Shown here: positions 5,891-52,665 of the stretch, in pieces
Numbering within the stretch: position 1 is the first letter of the stretch
How the letters are laid out: each line of letters starts with the position of its first letter
Assembly: GCF_017353515.1 (NCBI RefSeq)
Contig: NZ_JAFMPY010000004.1
Location: 62,001-126,000 of the forward strand
Reading direction: 5' to 3'
DNA: 64,000 nucleotides
Source: Jiella sonneratiae
GTDB lineage: Bacteria; Pseudomonadota; Alphaproteobacteria; Rhizobiales; Rhizobiaceae
Program-made: the position numbers and the translations under genes
The notes under the pieces: model-generated
Database searches by the model: none
Seen by the model: the letters and a program-made list of their open reading frames with translations, nothing else
Told to the model about the DNA's origin: nothing

Positions 5891-5905
5891 TGTCACTCCG
5901 ATCAG

Positions 5906-6952
5906 CTATTTCACGCCGCTCTGGGCGATGCCGGCCGTGATGTTCTTCTGCAGCAGCGCGAAGACGATGGTGATGGGCAGCAGCGTCAGCACCGTCATGG
6001 CGAGAAGCCCGCTCCAGGAGGTCTGCAGGTCGCCCTGGAAGGCGTTGAGGGCGAGCTGCAGCGTGAATTCCTCCGAGCGGGTGAGGACGATCAGCGGCCA
6101 GAGGAACTCGTTCCAGCGCCACATCACCGAGAAGATGATCAAAACGGCGATGGCCGGGGCGGCGAGCGGCAGGACGATCCGCCAGTAGACCCGCCATTCC
6201 GAGGCGTGGTCCATGCGCGCCGCGTCGAGCAGGTCGTCCGGGATCGTCAGCATGTACTGGCGCAGCAGGAAGACGCCGGTCGGCGTCGCCACCGCCGGCC
6301 AGATGACGCCCCAGGGCGTGTTGACGAGGCCGAGCTCGTTGACCACCAGATAGATCGGCACGAGGTTGATGGTCGGCGGAATCATCAAGGTGGCGATGAT
6401 CAGGAGGAAGACGGTGGTGCGCCCGCGGAAGCGGTATTTCGCCAGCGCGAAGGCCGCCATCGAATTGAAGATCACCGTGATGATCGTCGCGACCACGGTG
6501 ATGAAGACGCTGTTCCAGAAGTAGCGCATGAAGTTGAAGCGCTCGAACAGCTTCGAATAGTTTTCGAAGGCCATGGCGAATTCGCGCGCCGGCGCCCGGT
6601 CGCCGATCTTCACGTTGATCTTCTCGGCCGGGTTCTGCGGATCGACCATCTGGGCGTTGAGGCCGATGCGGCGGATCTGCGCCAGCACCTCGCCCCGGTG
6701 TTCGCCGGCGGTGATCTCGTAGAGCGGCAGCGGGTCGTCGTAGCCCTCGACCATCACCGTCTTCGGGGCGAACGGCAGGAAGCTCGGCGGATATTCCGAC
6801 AGGGCGGCGTCGGTCTTGAAGGAGCTCATCGCCACCCACAGAACCGGCCCGAACATCAGGACGATGCCGAGGATCAGATAGCCCCAGGTGAGCCAGTCGG
6901 TGACGTCGAAGCGGCCGCGGCCGCGGGTCCTCGAAATGAACGACCAGACCAT
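5906..6952 (-). CDS. CUT1 sugar ABC permease, MalG type
   Basis: A 348-residue inner-membrane permease. TM1 lies near residues 25-45, followed by an unusually long periplasmic segment of about 90 residues rich in charged residues before the typical five-helix MetI-like core. The coupling motif is AARMDHASEWRVYWRIVLPLAAPA (EAA loop). Most MalG proteins have about 280-300 residues. The loop insertion resembles that of alpha-glucoside permeases such as AglG, which agrees with the neighbouring GH31 enzyme. It starts four bases after the stop of the MalF-type gene. Confidence 0.92.
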   Translation of the reverse strand: MVWSFISRTRGRGRFDVTDWLTWGYLILGIVLMFGPVLWVAMSSFKTDAALSEYPPSFLPFAPKTVMVEGYDDPLPLYEITAGEHRGEVLAQIRRIGLNAQMVDPQNPAEKINVKIGDRAPAREFAMAFENYSKLFERFNFMRYFWNSVFITVVATIITVIFNSMAAFALAKYRFRGRTTVFLLIIATLMIPPTINLVPIYLVVNELGLVNTPWGVIWPAVATPTGVFLLRQYMLTIPDDLLDAARMDHASEWRVYWRIVLPLAAPAIAVLIIFSVMWRWNEFLWPLIVLTRSEEFTLQLALNAFQGDLQTSWSGLLAMTVLTLLPITIVFALLQKNITAGIAQSGVK

Positions 6953-6956
6953 CGGC

Positions 6957-7949
6957 TCAGCCCTCCGCCTGGCTTCGCGTCGCGCGCAGCTGCAGGAGCG
7001 TCAGCACCAGCAGCACCACCGCCATCAGGATCGAGGCCGCGGCGGCGAGGCCGAAGAGCTGCGGGCGCGAGGCAAAGCCCGTCTCGTAGATGTATTGCAG
7101 GATCAGCGTCGTCGCCGAACCGGGCCCGCCGCCGGTCAGGACGAAGATCTCGTCGAAGGCCTGCACCGCCCGGATGAGGCTGAGCACGACGACGACGACC
7201 ATGGTCGGCATCAACAGCGGCATGGTGATCTTCGAAAACACCCTGAAGCGCGAGGCGCCGTCCATCTCCGCCGCCTCGTAGACGTCGGAGGGGATCGCCT
7301 GCAGGCCGGCGAGCAGGATCAGTGTGTAGAAGCCCATATGCGCCCAGATCGAGACGAAGATGATCCAGAAGAACGCCCAGTGGGCATCGATCAGCCAGTC
7401 GACGGGGGCGAGGCCGAGATCCTCGAGGCCGGCATTGAAGATGCCGTAGCGCTGCAGGATCCACTTCCAGATCAGCGCGACGACCACCGGCGAGAGCAGG
7501 ACGGGATAGAAGAACACGCCGCGGAAGAAGCCTTTCAGCGGGATGTCGCGGTTGAGGATCAGCGCCGTGACCAGCGAGAAGGCGATCATGAAGCCGACCT
7601 GCAGCACCACGAACCAGCCGGTGTTGTAGACCGCGCGCCAGAACACGTCGCGCCGGCAGCTGTTCGGGTCGAGATAGTCGGTGCAGGACAGCAGCGAGGA
7701 GAAGTTCTCGGCCCCGACATAGGGGCGCTGGGAGAGCAGGATCGCGTCCGAGCCGGTGGTCGCGTAGAAGAAGTTGAGGATGATCGGCAGGAAGGTGAAC
7801 AGGCCGAAGATCAACAGGTTCGGCAACAGGAACAGCCAGGCGACGCGGGAGATGCCGACGAGGCGCTGGGCGCCGGCCATCGGCCATTCGAACAGGTTGA
7901 ACGCCGTCCGGTAGCCGAGCTGGACTGCCTGGGTGAGGGGCTTGAACAT
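6957..7949 (-). CDS. CUT1 sugar ABC permease, MalF type
   Basis: A 330-residue permease with about six membrane helices. The first is near residues 35-58, and a periplasmic loop with two cysteines (LSCTDYLDPNSC) precedes the core. The EAA motif is EAAEMDGASRFRVFSKITMPLL. It pairs with the MalG-type permease immediately downstream to form the translocation pore. An inverted-repeat-rich gap of about 100 bases separates it from the binding-protein gene upstream, a common arrangement that lets the binding protein be made in excess. Confidence 0.92.
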   Translation of the reverse strand: MFKPLTQAVQLGYRTAFNLFEWPMAGAQRLVGISRVAWLFLLPNLLIFGLFTFLPIILNFFYATTGSDAILLSQRPYVGAENFSSLLSCTDYLDPNSCRRDVFWRAVYNTGWFVVLQVGFMIAFSLVTALILNRDIPLKGFFRGVFFYPVLLSPVVVALIWKWILQRYGIFNAGLEDLGLAPVDWLIDAHWAFFWIIFVSIWAHMGFYTLILLAGLQAIPSDVYEAAEMDGASRFRVFSKITMPLLMPTMVVVVVLSLIRAVQAFDEIFVLTGGGPGSATTLILQYIYETGFASRPQLFGLAAAASILMAVVLLVLTLLQLRATRSQAEG

Positions 7950-38987: not shown

Positions 38988-40388
38988 TCAGACCGCCGGC
39001 GGCGGGGCTTGCGGACGGCGGGTATGCCAGTCGGTCTGGGTCTGGAAGGCATGGGCCGCGGTGGCGAGCAGCCCTTCCGAAAGCGGCGCGCCGGCGAGCT
39101 GCATCGACAGCGGCAGGCCGTCGCTGTCGAAGCCGTGCGGCAGGGTGATCGTCGGGAAGCCGGAGAAGTCGAAGGGCGCGGTGAACCGCAGCAGCCTGAC
39201 GAGAACCTCCGGGTCGTCGCCGAAGGCGGCGAGATCGGTCAGGCTCGGCAGGCGCATCGGCATCGTCGGGATGAGGAAGGCGTCGATGTCCGTAAACATC
39301 GCCGCGAGCGCGCCGTTGAACGTCAGCCTCTCGTGCAGGATGTCGCAGAGATCGAGGCCGCCGAGCGCGCGGCCTTCCTCGATCAGTCCGGCGAGTTCCG
39401 GGCCATAGTCGTCCTTCCTGGCCGGATAGGTGTCGCGGTGGGCGATCGCGGTCTCGACCGCGCACATCGGGATCCACAGGCTGACCAGCCTTTCATGCGG
39501 CGGAAAGCGCACCTCGCGGATCTTCGCGCCGAGCGATGAGAACACCGCCTCGGCGGCGGCGAGCGCCGCAGCGGCCTCCGGGTCGATGCCCTCGAAGGCG
39601 TAGCTGCGGTCGATGCCGATGGTCATGCCTCTAACGCCGTCGCGCAGCGCCGCGAGATAGTCCGGCACCGGCGCCTGCAGCGCCGTCGGATCGTTGCGGT
39701 CGGCCCCGGCGACGACGCCGAGGATCGCCGCGGCGTCGCCCGCCGAGCGCGCCATCGGCCCGACATGGTCGAGCGAATCGGCCAGCGCGAAGACGCCGTG
39801 GCGCGAGACCCGGCCCCAGGTCGGCTTGATGCCGGTCAGGCCGCAGGCGGCGGAGGGAAAGCGGATCGAGCCGCCGGTGTCGGAGCCGAGGGCGCCGTAG
39901 GCGAGGCCGGCCGCCGGCGCGACGCCGGAGCCGCTCGACGACGACCCGGCCCAATAGGCCGGGTTCCAGGGGTTGAGCGGGGCGTCGACCTCCGGATGGT
40001 GGGTGGTGTAGGCGCCCTCGGTCATCTTCAGCTTGCCGAGGATCACGGCGCCGGCGGCTTCCAGACGCGCGACGACCGTCGCGTCGTGGCCGGGCACGAA
40101 GTCGCGGTGGATCTTCGTGCCCGCCGTCGTCGGGGCGAAGGTGGTGTAGCAGAGGTCTTTGACCGCGACGGGCACGCCGTGCAGCGGCCCGCGCCAGATG
40201 CCCCGGGCAATCTCGCTCTCCGCCTGCCTGGCCTTCGCGCCGGCCCGCTCGGCGAGCACCGCCGCATAGGAGCGGTGGCCGGCGTCGAGGGCCTCGATGC
40301 GCGAAAGCATCGCTGCCGTCACCTCGACCGGCGAGACCTCGTGGCGGCGGATCGCCCCGGAGACCTGGAGCAGCGTGTCGTATTCCAT
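38988..40388 (-). CDS. Amidase-signature family amidase 1
   Basis: A 466-residue enzyme with the Ser-cisSer-Lys triad: Lys77 in VAVKDLCY, the Ser-rich loop AGSSSSGSG (149-154) and the nucleophile Ser174 in GSDTGGSIRFPS. Such enzymes hydrolyse amides to acid and ammonia; the specific amide is unknown. Cytoplasmic. It lies 25 bases downstream of the small ABM gene and is the last gene of the amide-importer operon. The ATG at 40388 is used because the upstream extension overlaps the ABM gene in a low-quality frame. Confidence 0.9.
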   Translation of the reverse strand: MEYDTLLQVSGAIRRHEVSPVEVTAAMLSRIEALDAGHRSYAAVLAERAGAKARQAESEIARGIWRGPLHGVPVAVKDLCYTTFAPTTAGTKIHRDFVPGHDATVVARLEAAGAVILGKLKMTEGAYTTHHPEVDAPLNPWNPAYWAGSSSSGSGVAPAAGLAYGALGSDTGGSIRFPSAACGLTGIKPTWGRVSRHGVFALADSLDHVGPMARSAGDAAAILGVVAGADRNDPTALQAPVPDYLAALRDGVRGMTIGIDRSYAFEGIDPEAAAALAAAEAVFSSLGAKIREVRFPPHERLVSLWIPMCAVETAIAHRDTYPARKDDYGPELAGLIEEGRALGGLDLCDILHERLTFNGALAAMFTDIDAFLIPTMPMRLPSLTDLAAFGDDPEVLVRLLRFTAPFDFSGFPTITLPHGFDSDGLPLSMQLAGAPLSEGLLATAAHAFQTQTDWHTRRPQAPPPAV

Positions 40389-40413
40389 GGCGACAATCCT
40401 CGTTGCGGCGGGG

Positions 40414-40716
40414 TCAGGCGCCCTTCGCCGAGATTTCCGCGGCGGTGACGAGCACGACCTTCCCGGCGAGGATCGGCTCGGCAACGGCGAAGAAGGCGGC
40501 GACGGCGGCCGAACCGTTGTGCCGGTGCATCGCCGCCTCGTCGGCGAAGCGCTCGTAGGTGGTGAAGCGGCAGGGGTCGGCCAGATCCTGCGACACGAAG
40601 AAGCCGACGGTCTCGGGCTCGTTCGCAGCGACGTGGTCCGCCACCTTGAGGAGGGCGTCGCGCATGACGCCCTCGCTTCCCGGCGCTGCCGTGATCACGG
40701 CGGTGATGGTGATCAT
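40414..40716 (-). CDS. ABM-domain (YgiN-like) small protein
   Basis: A 100-residue dimeric alpha/beta-barrel protein of the antibiotic-biosynthesis-monooxygenase fold: [53 protein letters not shown]. Members include quinol monooxygenase YgiN and many of unknown activity. Here it is sandwiched between two amidases with its ATG overlapping the upstream amidase stop (ATGA), so it is co-translated with them. It could oxidise an aromatic or aldehyde product, or be non-catalytic. Confidence 0.85.
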
Positions 40717-42230
40717 CCGAAGGTCTTCCAGTCGCCTTCCGCCTCGAAGGCGGCGGCGGCCCGGTAGATGGTCGATTCCGCATAGTCCCGGCCGACCAGC
40801 ATCATGCCGACGGGCAGCCCGTCCGACAGGCCGCAGGGGATCGACATCGCCGGATGGCCGGTCACGTCGAAGGGGGAAGTGGTCGAGGTCATCTCGAAGG
40901 CCCGGGTGATGATCTCCTCCAGCGGGGCGTCCTTGCCGGGGATCGGCGTCGCGACGCAGGGCAGCGTCGGCATCAGAAGGAGGTCGTAGTCGGCGAAGAG
41001 CGCGTCGTAGGTGGCCTTCACCTTGATCGCGATGTTGTGGGCCTTGGCGTAGTAGCGGCCGCGATAGTGGTCGAGGCCCCATTTGCCGACGAGCATGGTC
41101 AGCTTCAGCGTCTCGGAGAGATCGTCGGCCTTGTCGCGCCAGGCCGAGTGGGCGTCGAGAAGGCCGACGTCGTAGCGGCCCTTCCAGTTGAAGCCCATGC
41201 CGTTGCCGAGCATCATCTGGGCGGTGAAGCCTTCGAGCGTGATCGGGATCCAGATCGCCCGGGCGAGTTCGTGCTCGGGCAGCGAGACCTGCCTGACGGT
41301 CGCGCCGAGGCCGGCGAGGCGCTCGGCCCCGGCCCGCACCTTGTCGGCGACGCCCTCCTGCATGTTGGGGACGCTGAAGCCTTCCGCGAGGACGCCGATC
41401 TTCATGCCCTTCACGCCCTCGCCGAGCGCCTCGGTATAGGCCGAGACCTTCGGCGCGTACTGGCGCGGGTCGAAGCCGTCGGCACCGGCCAGCACTTCGA
41501 GGAGGAGGGCGTTGTCGGCGACCGTCGCGGTCATCGGCCCGGTGTGGTCGATGGTGTTCTCGATCGGCATCACGCCGGTATAGGGCACGAGGCCGTGGGT
41601 CGCCTTCATGCCGTAGATGCCGCAATAGGAGGCGGGAATGCGGATCGAGCCGCCCTGGTCGCCGCCGATCGCCATGTCGACCTCGCCGGCCGCAACGAGC
41701 GCGGCGCTGCCCGAGGACGAGCCGCCGGCGGAATAGCCCATGCGGTGCGGATTGTGGACCGGCGCCGGATCGGAGGTGTGGCTGCCGCCGGAGAGGCAGA
41801 AATGCTCGCAGACCGCCTTGCCGAGGATCGTCGCGCCGGCATCGAGCATGCGCGTGACGATGGTGGCGTCCCCCGCCGGCACGAAGCCTTCCAGCGTCGA
41901 GGCGCCGTTCATCATCGGCACGCCGGCCAGCGTGACGTTGTCCTTGAGGACGACGGTCTTGCCGGCGAGCTTGCCCGAGGGCGCGCCCTTCACCTCGCTC
42001 TTGTAGTACCAGGCGCCGTAGACGTTCTCGGCGCCGCTCGGCCGGTAGCCGGGCGTGCGCGGATAGCGCACCGCGGGGATCGGATCCGGGGTGGCGTCGA
42101 CGACGTCGTAGGCGTCGAAGTTGGGCGCCATCAAAGCGAGGTATTCCGCCGCCCTTTCCGGCGAGAGCGAAATGCCGACGGAGGCTGCGAGGTCGCCGAT
42201 GTCCTCGGCGGTCGGTCGGGTAATGGCCAT
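40713..42230 (-). CDS. Amidase-signature family amidase 2
   Basis: A 505-residue amidase: Lys96 in [13 protein letters not shown], the [15 protein letters not shown] loop with cis-Ser near 172-173, and nucleophile Ser195 in [13 protein letters not shown]. An N-terminal helical extension of about 80 residues precedes the core, as in amidases of aliphatic or aryl amides such as bacterial acetamidase/formamidase relatives. It is only moderately similar to the downstream amidase 1, so the two probably have different substrates. It lies directly after the importer ATPase genes, consistent with hydrolysis of an imported amide. Confidence 0.92.
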
Positions 42231-42309
42231 GACTTCTCCCTTCTCGCGAACGAGTTCCTGCTGCGTGTGATGGGTGGCGGTATTCCGCCCGCGGGCGGAT
42301 GCGCGGTGA

Positions 42310-43014
42310 TCAGGCTGCCGTCATCGCGACGTCTCCGGAGAGCAGTCTTTCGCGGTCGACCTCGCCGGTGATCCGGCCCTTCTGGATCGACAGGACGCGG
42401 TCCGAAAGCTGGGTGATGAAGTCGAGATTCTGCTCGACGATGATCATCGACAGCGCCCAGCGCCGGCGCAGCGTCTGCAGCGTCTCGATCATTTCCTCGA
42501 TGATCGACGGCTGGATGCCCTCGGTCGGCTCGTCGAGAAGGATCAGCTTCGGCCGCGCGCAGAGGCAGCGGGCGAGCGCCAGGAGCTGCTGCTCGCCGCC
42601 GGACAGCGCCCCGCCGCGCCGGTCGAGCAGGCGCTTCAGCCGCGGAAAGTCCTCCAGCACGCCGTCGATGACGCTACGGTCCTCTCGCTTCGCCGCGGCG
42701 AGCCCCATCCTCAGGTTCTCCTCGACGCTGAGGGTCGGAAAGATCTCCCGCCCCTGCGGCACGAGGCCGAGGCCGAGGCGCGAGCGCTGGTGGGTGGCGA
42801 GCCGGGTGACGTCGGTGCCGCCGAAGCGGATGCTGCCCGCCGTCGCCGGGATCGTCCCCATGACGGTGCGCATCAGCGTCGTCTTGCCCATGCCGTTGTG
42901 GCCGAGGATGCCGAGAAACTCGCCCTCGGCCATGGCGAAGGAGACGCCCGCGAGGATCGGCACGCGCCCGTAGCCGGCGCGCAGGCCCTCGACCGTCAGC
43001 AACTCGCCCGTCAT
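42310..43014 (-). CDS. Amide/urea-type ABC ATPase 2 (UrtE/LivF-like)
   Basis: A 234-residue ATPase: GHNGMGKTT Walker [53 protein letters not shown]. The GIQPSIIEE form is characteristic of UrtE and amide-type relatives rather than leucine LivF. Its ATG overlaps the stop of the LivG-like gene (ATGA), so the two ATPases are made together. Confidence 0.92.
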
Positions 43015-43751
43015 GCCGCCACCTTCTTGCCGAGATAGACGTCGCGCACCCGGCTGTCGGCGAGGACCGCCTCCACCGTGTCCTCCATCATGATCCGTCC
43101 CTGGTGGAAGACCGTCACCTTCTTGGCGATCATCTTGATGAATTCCATGTCGTGCTCGACGACGATCAGCGCCCGTGTGCGGTTGATCTCGCGGATGATC
43201 TCGGCGGTGCGCGCCGTCTCCTCGTCGGTCATGCCGGCGGCCGGCTCGTCGAGCAGGATGAGCTCGGGCTCGGCCGCGAGCACCGTGCCGATCTCGACCC
43301 ACTGGCGCTGCCCGTGGGAGAGCTGGCCGACGATCGCCTCGGCGAGCCCGCCGAGCCGGATCCGCTCCAGCACCTCGTCGACGATCGCCGCCGCCCGCTT
43401 GGCGGAAGCCTCGCGGCGGGCGGCCCGCGCGGCCGCGAGCCAGACGTTCTCCCGGACCGAGAGGCCGTTGAAGACGTTGGGGATCTGCGTCTTGATGCCG
43501 ATGCCGAGCCTGGCGATCTGGTGGGGCAGGTTGCCGGCGATCGGATGGGTGCGGAAGCGGATCGTGCCTTGGGTCGGCGTCAGCTGGCCGGTCAGCATCT
43601 TGAAGAAGGTGCTCTTGCCGGCGCCGTTCGGGCCGATGAGGCAGCGCAGTTCCATCTCCTCCAGCGCGAAGTTCACGTCGTCGTTGGCGACGACGCCGCC
43701 GAAGCGCATGGTGAGGTTGCGGGTTTCGAGCAGCGGGGCGATCTCGGCCAT
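43011..43751 (-). CDS. Amide/urea-type ABC ATPase 1 (UrtD/LivG-like)
   Basis: A 246-residue ATPase: GPNGAGKSTFFKMLTGQL, KTQIPNVFNGLSVRENVWLAA (Q-loop form of UrtD), LSHGQRQWVEIG signature and LILLDEPAAGMTDEE. LSHGQ-x-QW-EI replaces the canonical LSGGQ, a substitution typical of UrtD. That supports a urea/amide transporter family assignment. Confidence 0.93.
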   Translation of the reverse strand: MAEIAPLLETRNLTMRFGGVVANDDVNFALEEMELRCLIGPNGAGKSTFFKMLTGQLTPTQGTIRFRTHPIAGNLPHQIARLGIGIKTQIPNVFNGLSVRENVWLAAARAARREASAKRAAAIVDEVLERIRLGGLAEAIVGQLSHGQRQWVEIGTVLAAEPELILLDEPAAGMTDEETARTAEIIREINRTRALIVVEHDMEFIKMIAKKVTVFHQGRIMMEDTVEAVLADSRVRDVYLGKKVAA

Positions 43752-43755
43752 CGTC

Positions 43756-44820
43756 TCACTCCGCTCCGACGGGGTGGCCGCCGGGCAAAGCGTGGGTCTC
43801 CTCGCCGGCCGGGCGGCGGTTCCTTTCGCGGGCGAGGCGGCCCGCGGCGAGGAGGAGGTCGCGCACCGTCGGCACGAGGCCCTTGGGCAGGAGCAGGACG
43901 AAGACGACGAGGATCGCGCCGAGGACGAGGTTGGCGTTGAATGCCTGCTGGGTGCCGATCTGCGAGACGAGATATTCGATCAGGAAGCAGCCGACGATCG
44001 GGCCGATCAGCGTGCCGAGCCCGCCGATGCAGATCCAGATGATGATCTCGGCCGACAGCGACAGGGCGAAGATCGTCGGCCCGACGAAGGCGCCCCAGTT
44101 GACGTAGAGTGCGCCGGCAAGGCCCGCGACGCCGCCGCCGACCACGAAGACGAGGAGCTTGACGAGCCGCGGGTCGTAGCCCAGGAGGGCAGCCCGCGTC
44201 TCGTTCTCGCGCACCGCGATCGCCACCCGCCCGAAGGACGAGCGCAACAAGAGCCGCAGCCCGAGATAGACCGCGATCAGCGCCCCGCCGGTGACGTACC
44301 AGGACTGTTCGGGAAACAGGATCGACGACGGGTCGAAGGGCATGTTGAAGGTCGGCACGGCCGGCATGCCGTTGAAGCCGCCGAGCCGCGCCGAACCGAT
44401 CGCGTAAGCGTCGCCCGCCGTCGAGTTGAAGACGTTGAAGAGGATCAGCGTGACGGTGAGGGTGATGACGCCGAGATAGACGTCGCTGATCCGGCCGTAG
44501 AAGACGAAATAGCCGAGCGCCAGGGCGAAGAGCGCGGGAACGAGCACGGCGAGGAGGATCGCCGGCGTCGAATCCTGGAAGTTGATCGCGGTGACGGCAT
44601 AGGCGTAGGCGCCGAGGCCGAAGAAGGCGGTCTGGCCGAAGGAGAGGATGCCGCCGAAGCCCCAGATGAAGCCGAGGCTGAGGGCGAGGACGGCCATCGA
44701 GCAGAACAGCGTGAACTGCATCAGCTGGAACAGGTCGACATAGGACGGCATCACCGCCACCGCGACGCATGCGGCGAGGATCGCCAAGGCCTGGAGGGTG
44801 AGTTTGACGGGCCCGTTCAT
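43756..44820 (-). CDS. Amide/urea-type ABC permease 2 (UrtC/LivM-like)
   Basis: A 354-residue inner-membrane permease with about eight to ten helices. Blocks: WGFGGILSFGQTAFFGLGAYAY near 55, ENETRAALLGYDPRLVKL and GGLGTLIGPIVGCFLIEYL, the LivM-family landmarks. The hydrophilic C-terminal tail of about 40 residues is Arg/Pro-rich. It sits four bases after the LivH-like permease. Confidence 0.93.
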   Translation of the reverse strand: MNGPVKLTLQALAILAACVAVAVMPSYVDLFQLMQFTLFCSMAVLALSLGFIWGFGGILSFGQTAFFGLGAYAYAVTAINFQDSTPAILLAVLVPALFALALGYFVFYGRISDVYLGVITLTVTLILFNVFNSTAGDAYAIGSARLGGFNGMPAVPTFNMPFDPSSILFPEQSWYVTGGALIAVYLGLRLLLRSSFGRVAIAVRENETRAALLGYDPRLVKLLVFVVGGGVAGLAGALYVNWGAFVGPTIFALSLSAEIIIWICIGGLGTLIGPIVGCFLIEYLVSQIGTQQAFNANLVLGAILVVFVLLLPKGLVPTVRDLLLAAGRLARERNRRPAGEETHALPGGHPVGAE

Positions 44821-44823
44821 GGT

Positions 44824-45690
44824 TCAGATCGTTCCCTTGAAGAACCGGCCGGAGATGCCCTGCGGCAGGAGGCGGATCAGCACGATCGCCGCGAGGAAGA
44901 GGACGACCTCACCGTAGACCGGGGTCGTCAGATAGGCGCCGAGCTGGTTGACGAGGCCGAAGAGGGCGGAAGCCGAGCTCGTGCCGGAGATGATCGCCGC
45001 GCCGCCGCCGACGACGGTGATGAAGGCCTTCGCGACGTAGGCGCCGCCCATCACCGGGGTGATGCCGGAGACCGGCGCGAGGACGCCGCCGGCAAGGCCG
45101 GTGACGGCGGCGCCGAGCGAGAAGGTCGCCATGTAGATGCGGGCCGGGCTGACCCCGAGGACGGCCGCCATCTCCGGATTCTGCATCACCGCGCGGGCGA
45201 TCAGCCCGAAGCGCGTGTAGCGCAGGATGGCGTAGATGAGGACCAGCATGACGAGGGCGACGGCGAGCAGGAACAGCGTGTACCAGGAGGTGCGGTAGGC
45301 GCCGATGGAAAAGCCGCCGAAGGGCGTCGCGACCCCTTGCATGGTGTTGCCGAAGATCGTCGTCACCAGCCCGACGATGAGCAGGCTGAGGCCCCAGGTC
45401 GCCAGCATCGAATCGACCAGCCGCCCGTAGAGGAAACGGATCAGGCAGCGCTCGACGACGAGCCCGACGAGCCCGACGAAGAGCGGCGCGACGACGAGCA
45501 TGGCGACGAAGATGTTGACGCCGGCATTGGCCGAGATCACCGCGGCATAGGCGCCGAGCATGACGAACTCGCCATGGGCGAGGTTGATGATCCGCATCAT
45601 GCCGAAGATGATCGCGAGGCCGAGGCACAGGAGGAACAGCGATGCTGCGCCGTTGACGACGTTGAGCGCCAGGATGGCGGCGAGGTCCAT
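44824..45690 (-). CDS. Amide/urea-type ABC permease 1 (UrtB/LivH-like)
   Basis: A 288-residue permease: MRIINLAHGEFVMLGAYAAV, RFGLIARAVMQNPEMAAVLGVS and GVLAPVSGITPVMGGAYVAKAF are LivH/UrtB hallmarks. It probably has eight helices and pairs with the LivM-like permease. The 72-base gap from the binding-protein gene has a GC-rich hairpin-prone stretch (GCGCGGCGCAGCGCG region near 45748-45762). Confidence 0.93.
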   Translation of the reverse strand: MDLAAILALNVVNGAASLFLLCLGLAIIFGMMRIINLAHGEFVMLGAYAAVISANAGVNIFVAMLVVAPLFVGLVGLVVERCLIRFLYGRLVDSMLATWGLSLLIVGLVTTIFGNTMQGVATPFGGFSIGAYRTSWYTLFLLAVALVMLVLIYAILRYTRFGLIARAVMQNPEMAAVLGVSPARIYMATFSLGAAVTGLAGGVLAPVSGITPVMGGAYVAKAFITVVGGGAAIISGTSSASALFGLVNQLGAYLTTPVYGEVVLFLAAIVLIRLLPQGISGRFFKGTI

Positions 45691-45762
45691 GTCGGTCGTC
45701 TTCCGTAGGGCGTGGGGGCGGGCGGGGCGGGGAGCGCTTGGCCCCCCGCGCGGCGCAGCGCG

Positions 45763-47004
45763 TCAGGCCTTGATGTCGATGACGTATTGCTGGTTGTCGG
45801 CCGGATTTTTCAGGAGGTCGCAGACGCTCGCCGTGTCGGACGGCGGTACGGCCTTGAAGGTCTCGAGGACGTTCCACTTCTTGTCCTCGACGACGGCGAG
45901 ATAGGCGTTGCGCACGGTGTGGTGGGTCGCCGGGTCGAGCTTCACCTCGCCGCTCGGCCCCTTGTAGGAAACGCCGGTCTCGAGCGCCTCGATCACCTTC
46001 ATCCGGTCGAGGGAGCCGGCCTTCTTGACGCCTTCCGCCCAGAGATAGAGCCCCTCGTAGGTCGCGGCCGTGAGCTCGCTGATATAGGGGATCTGCGGCC
46101 AGCGCTTCTTCAGCTTCTCGACGAAGGCCTTGCTCTCCGGCGTGTCGAGCTCCTCGTAATAGCCGTAGCAGCCGTAGATTCCCTGGCTGACCGCGGCCTC
46201 GACGGTCGAGGGTTCGTTGACGAGGCCGAAGGTCGTCGAGGCGATCGGGATCTGGTCCTTCATGCCGGCCGACTGCCACTGCCGGTAGAAGGAGACGTGG
46301 TTGCCGCCCACCAGCGCCGACAGGATGAGGTCGGGCTTGGCCTCCTGGATCTTCGAGATCGTCGGTCCGAAATTGGTGACGTCGAGGGGGAAGAAGTCGA
46401 CCGACAGGACCTCGCCGCCGTTGTCCTGCATGTATTTGGTCATCCACTTGGCGGTGATCTGACCGTAATTGTAGTCGGCGGCGATGATGTAGGCCTTCTT
46501 GCCGCTCTTCTTCATCGCATAGGGCACGAGCTTCTCGACCGTCTGGGCCGGCGTGGTGCCGGTGCAGAAGGTGTCGCGGTCGCAGACGCCGCCCTCGTAG
46601 AGCACGTTGTAGAAGTAGAGGACGCGGAAGCGGTCGAAGGTCGGGCGGATCGCCTCGCGCGAGGCCGAGGTGATGCCGCCGTGGACGACGTCGACCCGGT
46701 CCTTCAAGGCGAGCTGCTGAGCGTATTGCGAATAGAGCTGGATGTTCGACTGGGTGTCGTACTGGATCAGCTTCAGCGGCCGGCCGAGCAGGCCGCCGGC
46801 ATCGTTGATCTCGGCGATCCCCTGTTCCATCGCGGTGACCATGGTGACGCCGGAGGAGGCGATCGCGCCGGACTGGTCCAGAAGGCTGCCGACCTTGATG
46901 GGGTCCTCGCTGCCGAAGGCGTAGCGCGTCGAGATCCCCGGCGCTGCGAGGGCCGCGGAGGCGGACACTGTCGTCTTCAGGAACTTGCGGCGTGAAATCG
47001 TCAT
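45763..47004 (-). CDS. Amide/urea-type ABC binding protein (UrtA/FmdD-like), Tat-exported
   Basis: A 413-residue periplasmic binding protein of the Peripla_BP_6 class. The N-terminus ISRRKFLKTTVSAS has a twin-arginine motif, with cleavage near SASAALAAPG/ISTRYAFG (about residue 30). The mature protein, SGAIASSGVTMVTAMEQGIAEIN, AADYNYGQITAKWM, STTFGLVNEP, TAATYEGLYLWAEG, resembles urea and short-chain-amide binding proteins. Tandem ATGs at 47007 and 47004 follow GAAGGG; 47004 has the better spacing. The neighbouring amidases imply an amide ligand. Confidence 0.92.
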   Translation of the reverse strand: MTISRRKFLKTTVSASAALAAPGISTRYAFGSEDPIKVGSLLDQSGAIASSGVTMVTAMEQGIAEINDAGGLLGRPLKLIQYDTQSNIQLYSQYAQQLALKDRVDVVHGGITSASREAIRPTFDRFRVLYFYNVLYEGGVCDRDTFCTGTTPAQTVEKLVPYAMKKSGKKAYIIAADYNYGQITAKWMTKYMQDNGGEVLSVDFFPLDVTNFGPTISKIQEAKPDLILSALVGGNHVSFYRQWQSAGMKDQIPIASTTFGLVNEPSTVEAAVSQGIYGCYGYYEELDTPESKAFVEKLKKRWPQIPYISELTAATYEGLYLWAEGVKKAGSLDRMKVIEALETGVSYKGPSGEVKLDPATHHTVRNAYLAVVEDKKWNVLETFKAVPPSDTASVCDLLKNPADNQQYVIDIKA

Positions 47005-47070
47005 CATGGGACCCTTCGGAGGACGGAACATCGGTTCCACGAAGACAATTGAAAACACAAAATTTGAAAA

Positions 47071-47087
47071 TGCAAACGTTTTTTGCA
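47071..47087. promoter_or_regulatory. Candidate operator upstream of the amide importer
   Basis: TGCAAA-CGTTT-TTTGCA (47071-47087) is a perfect inverted repeat in an AT-rich island 67 bases before the binding-protein start and just after the AmiC-like stop. A GCGGT-ttcc-ACCGC hairpin lies beside it on the minus strand (about 47089-47102). The site is suited to a MarR-type dimer and suggests a promoter internal to the locus. Confidence 0.5.
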
Positions 47088-47103
47088 GTGCGGTGGAAAC
47101 CGC

Positions 47104-48141
47104 CTAGCGGATGAAGGCGAGATCCAGACCGTCGACAGCCGCAAGGTGGATCGGCTGGCGTTTCCCCGCGACCGCCGGCTCGTCAGAGCCCCGCGCCGTC
47201 GAGCGCTGGAAGGTGCGGCCGAGCTCGCGCACGACGGCGGGCACCGCCAGTTCGCCGGCGGCCTCGGCAAGCGCGAGCAGGCAGTGGATGCCTTCGTAGC
47301 AGGACTGGCCGAAGGCGTTGGCGGGGGGCGGCGTCTCGCCGAAGCGGCCGTGATAGCGCTCCAGAAAGCAGCGGTTGTTGCGCGAGGAAAGCGCGGCGAA
47401 ATAGCCCGAGGAGAGGTAGAGGTTCTCGGTTGCGTCCGGCCCGATTCCGTAGAGCACCGTCTCGTCCACCGCCGAAGAGAACCGCAGCACCTTCGCCGCC
47501 AGCCCCTCGGCCGCGAAGGCGCGGTTGAAGGTGACGGCCTCCGCTCCGAGGAAATAGGGCACCACGGCGTCGGCGCGGCTGCGGACGATCTCGCCGAAGA
47601 GGAGATCGTAGTCCTCGAAGCCAAAGGGCACGATCCTCTCGCCGACGATCTCGGCACCGCGCGACGAAATGATGCGGCGCGCCGTCGCCAGCGTCTGGCG
47701 CGGCCAGACATAGTCGTTGCCGCACAGGTAGAAGCGCTTGGCGCCCTTCTGCTCGAACAGCCAGTCGATGCCGGGCCGGAGCAGTTCCTGCGAGGTCTCG
47801 CCGACGGTGACGATCGCCCGGTCGCGCTCGCGGCCCTCGAATTGCGGCGTGTAGACGAAGGGCACGCGGCCGCCGATCGTCGCGGCGACCGAGGAGCGCT
47901 GGTAGCTCGGCATCATGCCGATCACCGCGTCGATCTCGCCGAGGACGATCGGCAGGTCGACCGCCTCGGCGGCGCTCGCCGGGGTGACGCCCGCGTCGAG
48001 CACGGTGAGCTCGACCTCGTCGCCGAGCAGGCCGTAGCGATCGTTGATCTCGTCGACGGCAAGCCGTGCGCAGGCCTCCGACGACGGGGCCCAGATCCCG
48101 GCCGGACCGCTCTGCGCGATCAAGAGCCCGATGCGAATCAT
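47104..48141 (-). CDS. AmiC-like cytoplasmic amide-binding sensor
   Basis: A 345-residue Peripla_BP_6 protein that begins directly with IGLLIAQSGPAGIW and has no signal peptide or membrane helix. CGNDYVWPRQTLATARRIISSRGAEIVGE matches the corresponding GSDYIYPR region of Pseudomonas AmiC, and RADAVVPYFLG and SCYEGIHCLL continue the similarity. AmiC is a cytoplasmic binding-protein homologue that senses amides and sequesters the antiterminator AmiR. No AmiR-type ANTAR gene is in the window; a MarR gene is divergent instead. Function as an amide sensor is inferred. Confidence 0.8.
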   Translation of the reverse strand: MIRIGLLIAQSGPAGIWAPSSEACARLAVDEINDRYGLLGDEVELTVLDAGVTPASAAEAVDLPIVLGEIDAVIGMMPSYQRSSVAATIGGRVPFVYTPQFEGRERDRAIVTVGETSQELLRPGIDWLFEQKGAKRFYLCGNDYVWPRQTLATARRIISSRGAEIVGERIVPFGFEDYDLLFGEIVRSRADAVVPYFLGAEAVTFNRAFAAEGLAAKVLRFSSAVDETVLYGIGPDATENLYLSSGYFAALSSRNNRCFLERYHGRFGETPPPANAFGQSCYEGIHCLLALAEAAGELAVPAVVRELGRTFQRSTARGSDEPAVAGKRQPIHLAAVDGLDLAFIR

Positions 48142-48505
48142 TCGCTGCCCCCGGCAAGGCCTGCAAGGTCCGCCGAACGCCTCCGGCGGAGCGCGACCGA
48201 AGAGGGACGCAGCATATTTCGTGCCAGATCGCGCGGCGATGCCCGCGGCCCGCGGAGGCGGGGCCGGCCGGCGCGCCAGGGCCGCTCGCCTGGCAAGCCT
48301 CTGCGGTGCGCCGGCGCTTCAGGAGCGCCCCGGGCAAGGCAGACTGCGCGAATCCTGGGCAGTGCGCGGCGGCGGCTGCAACCTGCGGGAGCGGGCGGCG
48401 GCGCTGCCTGCAGGAAGGGTCGTTTCCCGCGTGGGCTGCGATATCGAATTGCCATGTCCCGGCGGGGACAATATATGAAAATTCCAATATCCAGGAGGGA
48501 CCCCC
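48142..48505. promoter_or_regulatory. Divergent AmiC-like / MarR regulatory region
   Basis: Within this 364-base gap, the MarR-proximal end holds two palindromes: GATATCGAATT (48440-48450) mirrored by AATTCCAATATC (48480-48491, imperfect), and inside them the perfect TGTCCC-ggcg-GGGACA (48455-48470). AGGAGGG then precedes the MarR ATG. The remaining roughly 300 bases upstream of the AmiC-like gene are GC-rich and gene-free, leaving a long untranslated leader if transcription starts near 48440. Confidence 0.5.
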
Positions 48506-48940
48506 ATGAGCGGCTCGCCCGAAGCAGGCCCGATCGCGCTGTCGGATCTGATTGCCGGCGTCAACCGCCGCTTCGACGTCGCCGTCGAATCGAGGCTGAA
48601 GGCTGCGGGGGTGCGCATCGAGCACTACCGCGTCCTCGAAAGCCTGATGCGCCGCGACGGCCAGTCGATGGGGGAACTCGCGCCGACGGTCTTCGTCGAC
48701 CTGCCGACGCTGACCAAGATCGTCGACCGGATGGTGGCCTCGGGGGTCGTCTACCGTGCGCCCGATCCGAAAGACCGGCGCCGGGTCCTGGTCTTCCTGT
48801 CGGAGCGCGGCCGGGCGCAGTTCGCCGACCTGAGGCCGGCGGTGGACAGCGAGCGCCGGGCGGCGACCGGGGGGCTGAGCGGCGTCGAGACCGACCAGCT
48901 TCTCGGGCTTCTCGCCGGCATCCTCAACCGGCCGCACTGA
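48506..48940 (+). CDS. MarR-family transcriptional regulator
   Basis: A 144-residue winged-helix protein. IEHYRVLESLMRRDGQSMGELAP and VDLPTLTKIVDRMVASGVVYRAPDPKDRRRVLVFLSERG (quoted in part) form the DNA-binding domain, with the wing at DPKDRRR. Dimerisation helices flank it. It is divergent from the AmiC-like gene and has palindromes just upstream, so it probably represses itself and the amide locus in response to a small ligand. Confidence 0.9.
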   Translation: MSGSPEAGPIALSDLIAGVNRRFDVAVESRLKAAGVRIEHYRVLESLMRRDGQSMGELAPTVFVDLPTLTKIVDRMVASGVVYRAPDPKDRRRVLVFLSERGRAQFADLRPAVDSERRAATGGLSGVETDQLLGLLAGILNRPH

Positions 48941-49006: not shown

Positions 49007-50203
49007 TCAGTCCGGCCAGCGCAGCGCCTTTTCCGTGTTCTGGCGCGGCGCGGCCATCGCGCCCTCCGGCCGCGGCGCCGCCATCACGCGCTTCAGTGCC
49101 TCGGCGACGATCTCGGCCTCTCCGGGATGGAGATTGCACGGGTCGAGGAAGAAGAAGCCGAGCTCGGCCTCGTGATCGCGCACGATGACCGGCGGCTCGC
49201 CGGCCGCCAGCGCCCTGGCCAGCCCGGTCGCGGTGAAGCCGCTTTCCGGCGCGACGGCGACCTCCAGCCGGTCGAGCGGATTGTGCGTCGGGTCGGGCCT
49301 GATCTCGGCGTTCAGACCGGGCAGGGCGTCGAGGGTCGTCTTCCAGAGTTCGAGGGCCGCCGTCTCGCGCGCCCTGATTCCGGCATGGTCGCGCTTTTCC
49401 CAGGCTTCGAGCGCCGCCATCACGCCGGCGATCGATTCCTTGCCGACCTTCATGCCGCGGCCGATCCCCTTGTTCTGGAGATAGGCGGCGCGCACCAGAT
49501 CCTTGCGCCCGGCGACGATGCCGGAGGTCGGGCCGGAGAGGAACTTGTGGCCGGAATAGACGACGACGTCGGCGCCGCGCGCGAGGAAGCCGCGCAGGTC
49601 GTATTCCGAGGCCGCGTCGACGATCACCGGCACGCCGCGCGGCCGGCAGATCTCCACCACCTGTTCGAGGCAGATCTGGCCGTATTGGACGGTGTGATGG
49701 CTGACGACGAAGAGCAGCGCCGCCGTCCTGTCGCCGATCGCGCGTTCGACGTGATAGGGCATCACCTGCGTCGCCGTGCCGGCGAACACCACCTTGCCGC
49801 CGGCGAGGCGGATCGACTGGTCGACCGGCGCACCGTAGTTCACCGCATGGCCGAGCTGCAGGATGACCTCGTCCTTCAGCCCCTCGGTCCGGTCCGGCAG
49901 CTTCTCGACGGCGAGGAGGTCGGTGCCGGTCATCGCGCCGGCGACGCTCATCGAGATGCCGGCGGCGCAGCAGGCGGTGACGAAGCCGGCTTCGCTGCCG
50001 GTGAGCCGGGAAATCACCGCGCTCGCCCGCCGCTGCAGGTCGTCCATCTCGACCCATTGCGGGGCGATTTCGGCCATCGCCGCGATCGCGTCCTCATGGA
50101 TGATCGAGGCGCCGAGCGAGGTCATCGTGCCGGAGACGTTGATCACCGCGCGAAGCCCGTGGCGGCTGCGGTAGTCGGAATTGTGCCTGGCGTCGATCGG
50201 CAT
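49007..50203 (-). CDS. SelA-like PLP-dependent lyase (DgaE/COG1921 family)
   Basis: A 398-residue fold-type I PLP protein related to SelA and to D-glucosaminate-6-phosphate ammonia-lyase. It has [32 protein letters not shown], Asp196 in [12 protein letters not shown] and the PLP Lys220 in [14 protein letters not shown]. No selenium pathway is implied; such proteins outside sel loci often catalyse ammonia elimination from amino sugars or amino acids. They recur beside COG3964 amidohydrolases, as here. ATG at 50203, AGAGGA eleven bases upstream. It is divergent from the IclR gene and is transcribed away from the rest of the minus-strand cluster. Confidence 0.85.
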
Positions 50204-50217
50204 GGTCAAGATCCTCT

Positions 50218-50234
50218 CAGAATTGGATTTTCTG
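50218..50234. promoter_or_regulatory. Candidate IclR operator
   Basis: CAGAA-N7-TTCTG, a perfect inverted repeat with an AT-rich centre, lies 15 bases upstream of the SelA-like start in the 121-base divergent gap before the IclR gene. Its location would let the IclR protein control both directions. Confidence 0.4.
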
Positions 50235-50324
50235 GCCCGTGGCCGGATGATCGGGGAAAGCCGTCCGCCGCTTGACCCGACCCGGTCTTCCCGTTCTATG
50301 GAAGCCGGATTCGAGGAGGGCGAT

Positions 50325-51089
50325 GTGAGCGCGACCAATGTCAGGAGCCGGACCAGCGGCATCGACCGGACGCTGCAGGTCATGGACATGCTGGTCGACC
50401 GGCGCGAGCCGATGTCGGCCTACGACATCGCCAAGAGCGTCGGAGCGCCGATCTCGACGATCTACCGGCTGGTCGACGAGTTGGTCGAGCGCGAGATGCT
50501 GTCGCGCGGGCCGGACAATCTCGTCTGGCTCGGCGCCCGGCTGATGCGCTACGGCCTCGTCTACCGCCAGCGGATCGACGCCTTCGGCCGCGCCGAGGAG
50601 GAGATGCAGCGTCTCGTCGCGCAGACCGGCGAGACGGTGCAGATCTGCACCCGCGACGGCGGTATGATGCTGGTCGTCGGCATGGAGGAGGGGCCGGGCC
50701 ACTTCCAGGTCGCCTCGAGGGTCGGCACCCGCGTGCCGCTGAACTGGACGGCCTCGGGGCGGCTGCTTCTCGGCCATCTCGGCGACGAGGAACGCCGCGC
50801 CGCCTTCGCCGCCTCGGCGATGCCGTCTGCGACCGGCATGGCCGAGCTCGACCCGGAGCGGCTGTCGGCCCAGGCGCGGGCGGATTTCGAGGCGCGCCTC
50901 GCCACGCAGTTCAACGCCAGCGAATATGCCGTCGCCTGCATCGCCTCGCCGATCCGCGACGAGGCCGGCGCCTGCGTCGCGACGATCTCGATCGTCCTGC
51001 CGGACCGGCGCGCCGAGGAACGCCAGGCCGAACTCGCCGAGGCGGTCCGCCGGGCGGCGGCGGCGGTCGAGCGCTCGCTCGGCCGCTGA
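50325..51089 (+). CDS. IclR-family transcriptional regulator
   Basis: A 254-residue regulator: winged helix [28 protein letters not shown] (in part) with recognition helix [13 protein letters not shown] near 41-53, then the IclR effector domain with [10 protein letters not shown] and [26 protein letters not shown] choose the GTG at 50325, preceded by GAGGAGG at ideal spacing, over ATGs at 50298 and 50181. It lies inside the SelA-like/Dpp locus and probably senses the imported substrate or its acid product. Confidence 0.9.
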
Positions 51090-51132
51090 TCCGGCGCGGC
51101 CGGCCGGCTTCGTCGCCCGATGCGTCAGGGCC

Positions 51133-51645
51133 TCAGCCACGTTCGAAGATCGCCTCCACCTCGACGGTGATGTTGTTCGGCAGCGACGAGACGCCGAAGG
51201 ACGAGCGGGCATGCACGCCGGCAGGCCCGAACACCGCGGCCAGAAGGTCCGAGGCGCCGTCGATGACGAAGGAATGGCGGGCGAAGTCGGGCGTCGCATT
51301 GACGAGGCCGAGCAGCTTCACCACCCCGCCGACGGCGTCGAGACTGCCGCAATGGCCGCGCAGCGCCGCGAGGATGTTGAGGGCGACGATCTCGGCGTGG
51401 CCGCGCGCCGCCTCGGCGTCGACGTCGCCCCCGACCTTGCCGCGCATCAGGCTGCCGTCCTGGAGCACCGGCCCCTGGCCGGAGACGTAGAGCAGCGAGC
51501 CGCATTCCCGCACGTTGGTGAAGGACCCGATCGGCACCGGCGGCGCCGCCGGCAGCGCGATCCTGGCCGCCGCCAGCCGTGACTCGGGGGTGCCGTCGGT
51601 CTGGCGGATCGGAAAGGGCGTCGAACCAAGGGGCGTCGAACTCAT
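51133..51645 (-). CDS. RidA-family protein
   Basis: A 170-residue YjgF/RidA-fold protein: PPVPIGSFTNVRECGSLLYVSGQGPV, LNILAALRGHCGSLDAVGGVVKLLG and RSSFGVSSLPNNITVEVEAIFE. The usual substrate-contact Arg (about 105 in RidA) and terminal Glu are replaced within RSSFGVSSLP-x5-EVEAIFE, so it is a member of a non-archetypal subgroup. RidA proteins hydrolyse 2-aminoacrylate and related imines. In this locus the SelA-like lyase could create such an enamine. It lies six bases upstream of the DppF stop's gene start boundary, ending the operon's promoter-distal part. Confidence 0.87.
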   Translation of the reverse strand: MSSTPLGSTPFPIRQTDGTPESRLAAARIALPAAPPVPIGSFTNVRECGSLLYVSGQGPVLQDGSLMRGKVGGDVDAEAARGHAEIVALNILAALRGHCGSLDAVGGVVKLLGLVNATPDFARHSFVIDGASDLLAAVFGPAGVHARSSFGVSSLPNNITVEVEAIFERG

Positions 51646-51651
51646 GGGACC

Positions 51652-52665
51652 TCAGAGATTGATGCAATGGGCGAAGCGTCCCGGGCCGACGGCCACGGGC
51701 GCGGGGAAGGCCGCGGCGCAGGCTTGAAGCGCGCGCGGACAGCGGGTGCGGAAGACGCAGCCGGAAGGCGGGTCGAGCGGGCTCGGGATCTGGCCCGCCA
51801 GCACCTCGCGGTTGCGCGGGGCCGCCGGATCGGGCTGCGGCACCGCCGAGAGGAGGGCGCGGGCATAGGGGTGGGCGGGCGCGCGCACGAGCTCCCGCGC
51901 CGGCCCCGTCTCGACGATCCGGCCGAGATACATCACCGCGATCCGGTCGCAGAGATAGTCGACGACGGAAAGGTCGTGGGCGATGAACAGCATCGTCAGC
52001 CCGCGGCTTTCCCGCAGATCGAGGAGAAGGTTGAGGATCTGCGCCTGGATCGAGACGTCGAGGGCCGAGACGCTCTCGTCGGCGACGATGAATTCCGGTT
52101 CGAGCGCGAGCGCCCGGGCGATGCCGACGCGCTGGCGCTGGCCGCCGGAAAATTCGTGCGGATAGCGCTTCATCTGGTCGGCCGACAGCCCGACCTCCTC
52201 AAGCAGCGCCGCGACCCTGTCGCGCCGCTCGCCCCGCGTGCCGATGCCGTGGGCGCGCAGGCCCTCGCCGACGATGTGCTCGACCTTGAGACGCGGGTTG
52301 AGCGAGGAGACCGGATCCTGGAAGATGATCTGCATGCGCCTGCGCATGGCCGTCATCTGGCGCGGCGAAAGCGCCGTCAGGTCTTCGCCGGCAAAGCGGA
52401 TCGAGCCGGCGCTCGGCTCGACCAGCCGCAGCAGCGTCCGCCCCAGCGTCGTCTTGCCGGAGCCCGATTCGCCGACAAGCCCGGTGATCGAGCCGCGCGG
52501 AATGTCGAGGTCGACGCTTTCCACCGCGTGGACCGTGCCGCGCGGCGTCTGGTAGCGCTTCGACAGGCCGCGGATCGAGAGCAGCGGTTCGCCGGCGGCG
52601 GTCTTCGCGGCCGCGGCGGTCTCGGCGGCCGCGCCGGCGGGGCGGGCGGAATGCGGCTCAGGCAT
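51652..52665 (-). CDS. Dipeptide-type ABC ATPase (DppF-like)
   Basis: A 337-residue ATPase: GESGSGKTTLGRTLL Walker A, IFQDPVSSLNPRLKV, FSGGQRQRVGIARAL, FIVADESVSALDVSIQAQIL (Ser replaces the common Pro of DEPVS) and the C-terminal cysteine pattern CVFRTRCPRALQAC of peptide-type ATPases, which can bind an iron-sulfur cluster. Overlaps the DppD gene by eight bases. Confidence 0.93.
   Translation of the reverse strand: MPEPHSARPAGAAAETAAAAKTAAGEPLLSIRGLSKRYQTPRGTVHAVESVDLDIPRGSITGLVGESGSGKTTLGRTLLRLVEPSAGSIRFAGEDLTALSPRQMTAMRRRMQIIFQDPVSSLNPRLKVEHIVGEGLRAHGIGTRGERRDRVAALLEEVGLSADQMKRYPHEFSGGQRQRVGIARALALEPEFIVADESVSALDVSIQAQILNLLLDLRESRGLTMLFIAHDLSVVDYLCDRIAVMYLGRIVETGPARELVRAPAHPYARALLSAVPQPDPAAPRNREVLAGQIPSPLDPPSGCVFRTRCPRALQACAAAFPAPVAVGPGRFAHCINL

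Follow-up and report, generated by a model that had tools for sequence, protein, structure and literature searches.

A leaderless AmiC-like protein and a divergent MarR-family regulator as a probable two-protein switch at a predicted amide-import and amidase locus of Jiella sonneratiae

A 64,000-nucleotide stretch of Jiella sonneratiae contig NZ_JAFMPY010000004.1 (positions 62,001 to 126,000; hereafter the window, numbered from its first letter) was analyzed. It carries a putative amide-catabolism locus in which the gene of a leaderless AmiC-like binding protein, proposed here as an amide sensor, lies between a divergent marR gene and an ATP-binding cassette (ABC) importer. Read leftward from marR, the genes are ordered as follows.

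48506..48940, plus strand: MarR-family transcriptional regulator, divergent, proposed partner of the sensor (Pfam MarR, 46.9 bits)
47104..48141, minus strand: leaderless AmiC-like binding protein, 345 aa, proposed amide sensor (Peripla_BP_6, 209.8 bits)
about 45763..47007 (start inferred), minus strand: exported substrate-binding protein of the importer (Peripla_BP_6, 289.9 bits)
44824..45690, minus strand: ABC importer permease, UrtB/LivH-like (BPD_transp_2, 117.7 bits)
43756..44820, minus strand: ABC importer permease, UrtC/LivM-like (BPD_transp_2, 120.2 bits)
43011..43751, minus strand: ABC importer ATPase, UrtD/LivG-like (ABC_tran, 106.6 bits)
42310..43011, minus strand: ABC importer ATPase, UrtE/LivF-like (ABC_tran, 115.4 bits)
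40713..42230, minus strand: amidase 1, amidase-signature family, PRK07235 type (NF005565, 835.6 bits, cut-off 545)
40414..40713, minus strand: ABM-domain protein (PF03992, 46.7 bits)
38988..40388, minus strand: amidase 2, amidase-signature family (PF01425, 333.9 bits)

Profile searches recovered every gene that an earlier sequence-only reading of the window had named, in the order given there. The leader of the importer's binding protein was read by eye as being of the twin-arginine translocation (Tat) type (SRRKFLK). The importer differs from UrtABCDE in that this binding protein scored below the cut-offs of the urea models (urea_ABC_arch, 350.7 versus 494.8 bits; a second urea model, 255.1 versus 492.75 bits). 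A promoter consensus scan gave no match, and no Rfam family reached its gathering score in the 64-kb window.

The AmiC-like protein of the window is leaderless. Upstream of its start codon, the reading frame runs 59 codons to an in-frame stop and contains no ATG, GTG, or TTG, so there is no room for a signal peptide, in agreement with the sequence-only reading, which had called this protein signal-less. For comparison, 97 family members (window included) were reduced to 88 by dropping nine near-duplicate loci; 84 of these were labeled leaderless and four Tat-exported, based on upstream stops and on N-termini read by eye. The lack of any earlier start codon for the window gene, together with in-frame stops at most 15 codons upstream of the aligned start in 21 of the 97 members (window and near-duplicates counted), leaves next to no chance that the sensor is an exported second binding protein with an overlooked leader. 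Such a protein would suit the family fold and the Tat-like leaders of four relatives, and an N-terminus longer by at least 20 residues is possible in 46 of the 84 leaderless-labeled relatives. A hydrophobicity scan flagged only two of these 84 (L137 and L114), but it is insensitive, having missed the window's own exported binding protein (score 1.32, threshold 1.6), and taken alone it does not demonstrate that members are leaderless. In a Bradyrhizobium-like subclade (L079, L110, L111, L115, and L117–L120; sensor genes near 5755–7275), the binding-protein fold is preceded by a conserved N-terminal stretch of ~40 additional residues (PPSLLFRNLSS...SPSDHAF.RRRG), possibly a partner-binding segment.

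The pairing of the AmiC-like protein with MarR is, as judged from its distribution among sequenced genomes, old. A genome scan with the sensor protein gave 24 loci, with MarR adjacent in 23 of them; the 24th (L037, 27% identity) had no MarR match. At L034 and L035, the importer lies beyond MarR in reversed orientation, and MarR is ~0.9 kb from the sensor gene. In the class sample of 385 genomes, 17 held a total of 28 sensor places at ≥210 bits, the remaining matches listed scoring ≤132 bits, and the order sample contained 33 places in 30 of 397 genomes; both samples include the window's own genome, and three places are common to both lists. The order sample included one further genome of the genus, which had no match to the sensor, so the module is patchy. 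Plasmid records with a sensor match (E up to 1e-5) numbered 1030. Among 16 that were examined, 14 are annotated, and 13 of these show a MarR gene as the immediate neighbor; a MarR profile match was adjacent in all 16.

Across the non-redundant set, MarR was found within 1.5 kb of 81 of the 84 leaderless members and of none of the four Tat-exported members. Two of the three exceptions lie at contig ends (L114 and L124), and the third (L087) has MarR ~2 kb off. An ABC importer was present in the fetched flanks of 59 of the 84 leaderless members and of all four exported ones; these flanks were 10 kb for L014–L036 and 6–8 kb for the others, some cut by contig ends, and absences of importer or ANTAR genes refer to them. 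MarR is therefore the steadier neighbor of the leaderless members among these genes. An amide- or nitrile-converting enzyme was found near 65 of the 84, and its type varies (amidase-signature, AmiE, FmdA, or nitrile hydratase) while MarR is constant. In controls, none of 13 weaker-scoring binding-protein genes had MarR in their 1.5-kb flanks (12 of the 13 have an evident leader by eye), and seven non-partner MarR genes were present in 1.40 Mb of the same loci. A reciprocal search of the 385 genomes with the MarR protein, scoring up to 10 candidates per genome, placed all 18 best non-self matches (E up to 1.9e-18) within 2.3 kb of an AmiC-like place, compared with one (G209) of 13 weaker matches.

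The four Tat-like leaders were read by eye in the products of L082:12595-13896, L083:8422-9723, L084:5887-7188, and L123:5845-7050. These relatives probably represent an exported sister lineage.

The distribution of neighbors also bears on whether the target of the AmiC-like protein is the importer or an amidase (e.g., by trans-inhibition) and not transcription. A sensor gene placed directly before the importer, the 59 members with an importer in their flanks, and sensor distances that follow an ATPase best in close orthologs (see below) would all fit such an action. We nevertheless consider it improbable, since 24 of the 25 members with no importer in the fetched flanks retain MarR, and MarR stays while the nearby enzymes switch among the four types listed above.

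The 2,6-dichlorobenzamide plasmid pBAM1 of Aminobacter MSH1 carries a MarR/AmiC-like pair (L040:7337-9038), located 3.7 kb from an annotated amidase. The pBAM1 amidase is named BbdA in the genome paper, the main text of which contains neither "regulator" nor "bbdR" (PMC8460812). No sensor–MarR fusion was evident in the class and order samples, where the open frames of family matches reach at most 461 aa. At L060 (genome G083, C70:18670-19605), an AmiC/UrtA-like domain lies inside a 1098-codon open frame and is possibly a sensor fusion.

AmiC of Pseudomonas aeruginosa works with an RNA-binding ANTAR antiterminator, AmiR, and the sequence-only reading had seen no ANTAR gene beside the AmiC-like gene. 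The J. sonneratiae genome has three ANTAR genes, none of which falls in the 64-kb window. Two of them adjoin an AmiC of their own, one on contig C4 and the other on C38, ~38 kb from the window AmiC-like gene; the genome thus holds two AmiC/AmiR-type pairs besides the AmiC-like/MarR locus. The third (72-bit domain) we take to be NasT-like. A profile built up from an AmiR-type protein was applied at a cut-off of 100 bits, with matches scored out to 8 kb although most flanks had been retrieved to 6 kb. An ANTAR gene was thereby found in the flanks of one of the 84 leaderless members (L136), where it belongs to a complete, separate AmiC/ANTAR cluster. Such a cluster also lies just past 8 kb at L014 and L015. 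The AmiC/ANTAR pair on C38 (L098, C38:144000-152000) directly precedes an oligopeptide-type ABC permease, identified by eye, and not an Urt-type importer.

With two AmiC/ANTAR pairs and a third ANTAR gene in the genome, the sensor could in principle be a conventional AmiC whose AmiR-type partner is encoded elsewhere. This is very unlikely. Each AmiR-type gene of the genome adjoins its own AmiC, and 11 of 23 relatives' genomes have only one ANTAR gene, which at 70–80 bits resembles the NasT-like copy of the window genome in score. The sensor also lies outside the AmiC clade (see below), and no terminator-like leader was found by a simple consensus scan of the gap before the importer; that strand contains two such sites, both within the sensor gene, compared with 1.4 ± 1.5 in shuffles. 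An ANTAR partner in trans was disfavored by the survey of the window genome and its relatives.

The marR/sensor intergenic sequences share a 20-bp palindrome, ATATTTGAAATTTCAAATAT. The motif was derived from 24 sequences, which remained of 35 after one had been excluded on account of its length and, from the resulting 34, 10 for resembling retained ones. The motif log-likelihood was 160.8, compared with 44.6–55.7 in six shuffled sets; the search was given 40 restarts with the actual sequences but 12 per shuffled set, and shuffling does not preserve kinship. A scoring matrix was built from 15 of the 24 motif sites, which we picked for clear matches, and was scanned over all loci. The three best sites of the 64-kb window all lie at the locus:

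48471..48490, no strand assigned: predicted MarR operator 1, 20-bp palindrome (33.0 bits, best of 64 kb, itself a training site)
47060..47079, no strand assigned: predicted MarR operator 2, between the sensor gene and the importer (21.9 bits, second best of 64 kb, untrained)
47045..47064, no strand assigned: predicted MarR operator 3, shifted by 15 bp relative to operator 2, which it overlaps (15.2 bits, third best of 64 kb, untrained)

Predicted operator 1 sits 15 bp before the marR start codon. Because the two untrained sites lie just before the importer, the predicted MarR control is placed at the importer itself. Within 250 bp past the end of the sensor gene, sites of ≥15 bits were present in 27 of 32 close leaderless members (11 of 2093 background windows) and 27 of 51 distant ones (9 of 2315 background windows), with L100 left out of the count. 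The members are related, so the p-values of these comparisons are too small, although the contrast is still large. The four exported members have no such site and no palindrome.

Co-divergence was compared over 53 pairs, namely those with identified importer genes. MarR distances correlated with those of the sensor at 0.77, and with those of the binding protein, the permeases, and the first ATPase at 0.37–0.41; the correlation with the second ATPase, which is less surely assigned, was 0.63. Sensor distances correlated with those of the importer genes at 0.70–0.74. The sensor–MarR correlation exceeded that between the binding protein and MarR in all 1000 subsamples, and the partial Mantel value for sensor and MarR given the binding protein (0.76) was reached in none of 1000 permutations. 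As far as distances can tell, MarR tracks the sensor more than the importer while the sensor tracks both, a pattern that does not prove contact.

The AlphaFold2 model of the AmiC-like protein alone (predicted local distance difference test, 85.6; predicted template modeling score, 0.84) has a complete binding-protein fold. Its best PDB matches are the urea-binding 8tg1, UrtA, and AmiC, and 8tg1 is the top match of the sensor both by sequence and by structure. P. aeruginosa AmiC (1pea, 1qnl, and 1qo0), itself a leaderless type I amide-sensing binding protein with shared core pocket residues, aligned with the model at a template modeling score of 0.81–0.83 by query length and 23% identity. The UrtA study names Trp120, Ser122, Tyr141, Gln144, Glu146, Tyr190, and Asn246 around urea (PMC10392092). 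Using our alignments, in which HMMER leaves a one-residue gap beside Tyr141, five of these residues (Ser122, Tyr141, Gln144, Glu146, and Tyr190) were mapped to Ser79, Tyr97, Gln100, Glu102, and Tyr144 of the sensor. UrtA and 8tg1 are exported, and the sensor has Met77 and Leu198 at the positions of UrtA Trp120 and Asn246. All 84 MarR-linked members have Ser79, Glu102, and Tyr144, and 40 have Gln100. Hydrophobic residues occupy the Asn246 column in all of these members and the four AmiC rows, although most of the seven exported rows compared have them too. These residues hint weakly at an amide rather than urea as the ligand. Tyr263, Ser280, Glu283, and Arg317 occur in 84, 80, 82, and 80 of the 84 MarR-linked members, respectively, and are absent from the four exported sisters; these positions are candidates for signaling or partner contact.

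In a 96-row tree, the sensor family formed one clade (support 100/100) that includes L039 and L041. The Tat-exported members formed their own clade (100/99) beside the remaining family (93/87), and P. aeruginosa AmiC grouped with three ANTAR-linked AmiCs in a separate clade (100/98) outside the sensor family. In a 41-row tree with more exported proteins, AmiC grouped with exported urea-type proteins (99/97), and support for the MarR-linked set as one clade was moderate (82/88). Several tree rows have an unusual letter make-up, and the L060 row, labeled exported in the 41-row tree, has no clear leader in its long open frame but lies outside the tested group. A single clade of all leaderless proteins was rejected in the approximately unbiased (AU) test (cost of 108 log-likelihood units, p-AU 0.000115); the grouping came from the sequence-only reading but was tested after the first tree, which partly exposes it to the caution that holds for groups defined once a tree has been seen. 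Read most simply, these trees suggest that the export signal was lost twice independently. The sensor would then descend from an exported binding protein brought into the cytoplasm independently of AmiC, instead of being an AmiC with a changed partner. We regard it as an even bet that exported binding proteins gave rise to cytoplasmic amide sensors on two or more occasions, one leading to AmiC/AmiR and another to the pairing with a MarR repressor that ceded ligand sensing and so came under protein control.

This kind of regulation is already known in Actinobacteria, as judged from gene neighborhoods and from the nitrile hydratase cluster of Rhodococcus rhodochrous J1. That cluster is reportedly regulated by NhhC and NhhD (Komeda and colleagues, 1996), which are said to be an AmiC-like protein beside a MarR-type regulator with no AmiR, the AmiC-like gene being required for full expression. 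The locus described here shares with such a switch the AmiC-like protein with no signal peptide, the adjacent MarR, and a clade that includes a Rhodococcus protein. This protein, from Rhodococcus sp. M8 (L039), is encoded in the same pair arrangement next to annotated nthB/nthA. The actinobacterial L039 differs in being only 34% identical, in lying beside nitrile hydratase rather than an ABC importer, and in having no nearby site of the predicted palindrome. To our knowledge, neither the Rhodococcus nitrile hydratase work nor later studies have settled how an AmiC-like protein signals to its DNA-binding regulator.

Plasmids of Rhodococcus, Mycolicibacterium, and Rhizobium likewise carry annotated homologous pairs, with nitrile hydratase or aliphatic amidase genes as neighbors. 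In Mycolicibacterium arabiense (L134), MarR, the AmiC-like protein, AmiS, and AmiE are encoded together, a likeness to the acetamidase operon of M. smegmatis, whose AmiC and AmiA we take to be AmiC-like and MarR-like. That operon, likened here by description, differs in having AmiS, AmiE, and the further regulator AmiD. AmiC and AmiD are positive regulators and AmiA a negative regulator of the acetamidase (PMC12719403), and AmiC is also called a positive regulator in the title of a cited paper. The sequence-only reading had suggested that the sensor might have been rewired to a DNA-binding partner or might act by itself, in a combination that it did not recognize as described. Of this proposal, the conserved pair, the lack of an ANTAR gene beside it, and predicted operators for a DNA-binding partner, recurring at the importer, hold up. 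The sensor belongs to a lineage separate from AmiC, so that a rewired AmiC is not borne out, and the homologous annotated pairs and the published AmiC/AmiA control run counter to the claim of an undescribed combination. The AmiC-like/MarR switch appears to be a widespread branch of a known regulation style that arose separately from AmiC/AmiR. In the open literature, which omits most subscription papers, no account was found of the separate origin from AmiC, of the operator map, or of the proteobacterial importer-linked branch.

We favor, with reasonable though limited confidence, an amide-import and amide-hydrolysis operon under a dedicated two-protein switch. MarR would bind the predicted palindromes that lie ahead of marR and in the sensor–importer gap; by analogy with its family, it would repress marR and the importer operon. 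The leaderless AmiC-like protein would stay in the cytoplasm and, judging from its residues, bind an amide in its AmiC/UrtA-type pocket. The loaded sensor would relieve the repression, most simply by binding MarR, so that amide entry would induce the importer and amidases. The anti-repressor model follows from the positive role of the sensor, which is taken from its actinobacterial relatives (M. smegmatis and R. rhodochrous J1).

MarR proteins often bind small molecules themselves. MarR could thus sense the amide or its acid product, with the AmiC-like protein as an accessory that buffers or concentrates amide in the cytoplasm, and the complete binding-protein fold of the sensor and distances that track the importer as well as MarR are compatible with this. 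We rate it as rather unlikely, yet the most serious alternative to the two-protein switch: a mere buffer would hardly keep its MarR neighbor in 81 of 84 members across importer, nitrile hydratase, and AmiE contexts, and the positive role reported for M. smegmatis AmiC also speaks against it.

Several further observations weigh against the two-protein switch. The sensor–MarR contact is something we infer, the structure model being of the monomer only, and the choice between anti-repressor and co-repressor rests on actinobacterial genetics. No 15-bit gap site was found in 29 of 83 leaderless members, including the Rhodococcus nitrile hydratase locus L039; several site-less members, such as L039 and L137, also have no importer. 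The four Tat-exported members represent only two lineages, three being near-identical; at the locus of each of these three there is also a leaderless copy, and the MarR of that copy lies 3–7 kb off. In the pocket, Met77 occupies the position of both AmiC Tyr83 and UrtA Trp120. When the co-divergence was split by kinship, the sensor followed the first ATPase (0.96) better than MarR (0.76) in the 25 close members, and followed both equally (0.80 and 0.80) in the 28 distant ones. The co-divergence is thus less special, and our confidence in the two-protein switch was lowered slightly.

If the switch operates as proposed, a MarR repressor would be controlled by a protein partner, with ligand sensing ceded to a separate binding protein. 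The 81 adjacent pairs, the predicted operators, the MarR-less exported sisters as a natural control, and the candidate sensor positions make the signaling question directly testable. Amide-inducible expression switches are a possible use.

Among the remaining genes of the locus, ABM matches (E up to 1e-15) were found near 21 of the 84 leaderless members. A close copy of amidase 2 (≥78%) occurs only in L014, L015, L016, and L018 among the 24 loci; in Jiella pacifica (L015:18036-19414), the match lies in two different reading frames, which is not so in the other three. Next to the locus, 49007–52665 encodes a DgaE-like pyridoxal phosphate enzyme (minus strand), a divergent IclR (plus strand), a YjgF-like protein, and a probable oligopeptide-type ABC ATPase, the last identified by eye. 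No DgaE match was found in the loci of the 23 relatives, and the genes at 49007–52665 probably form a separate catabolic unit.

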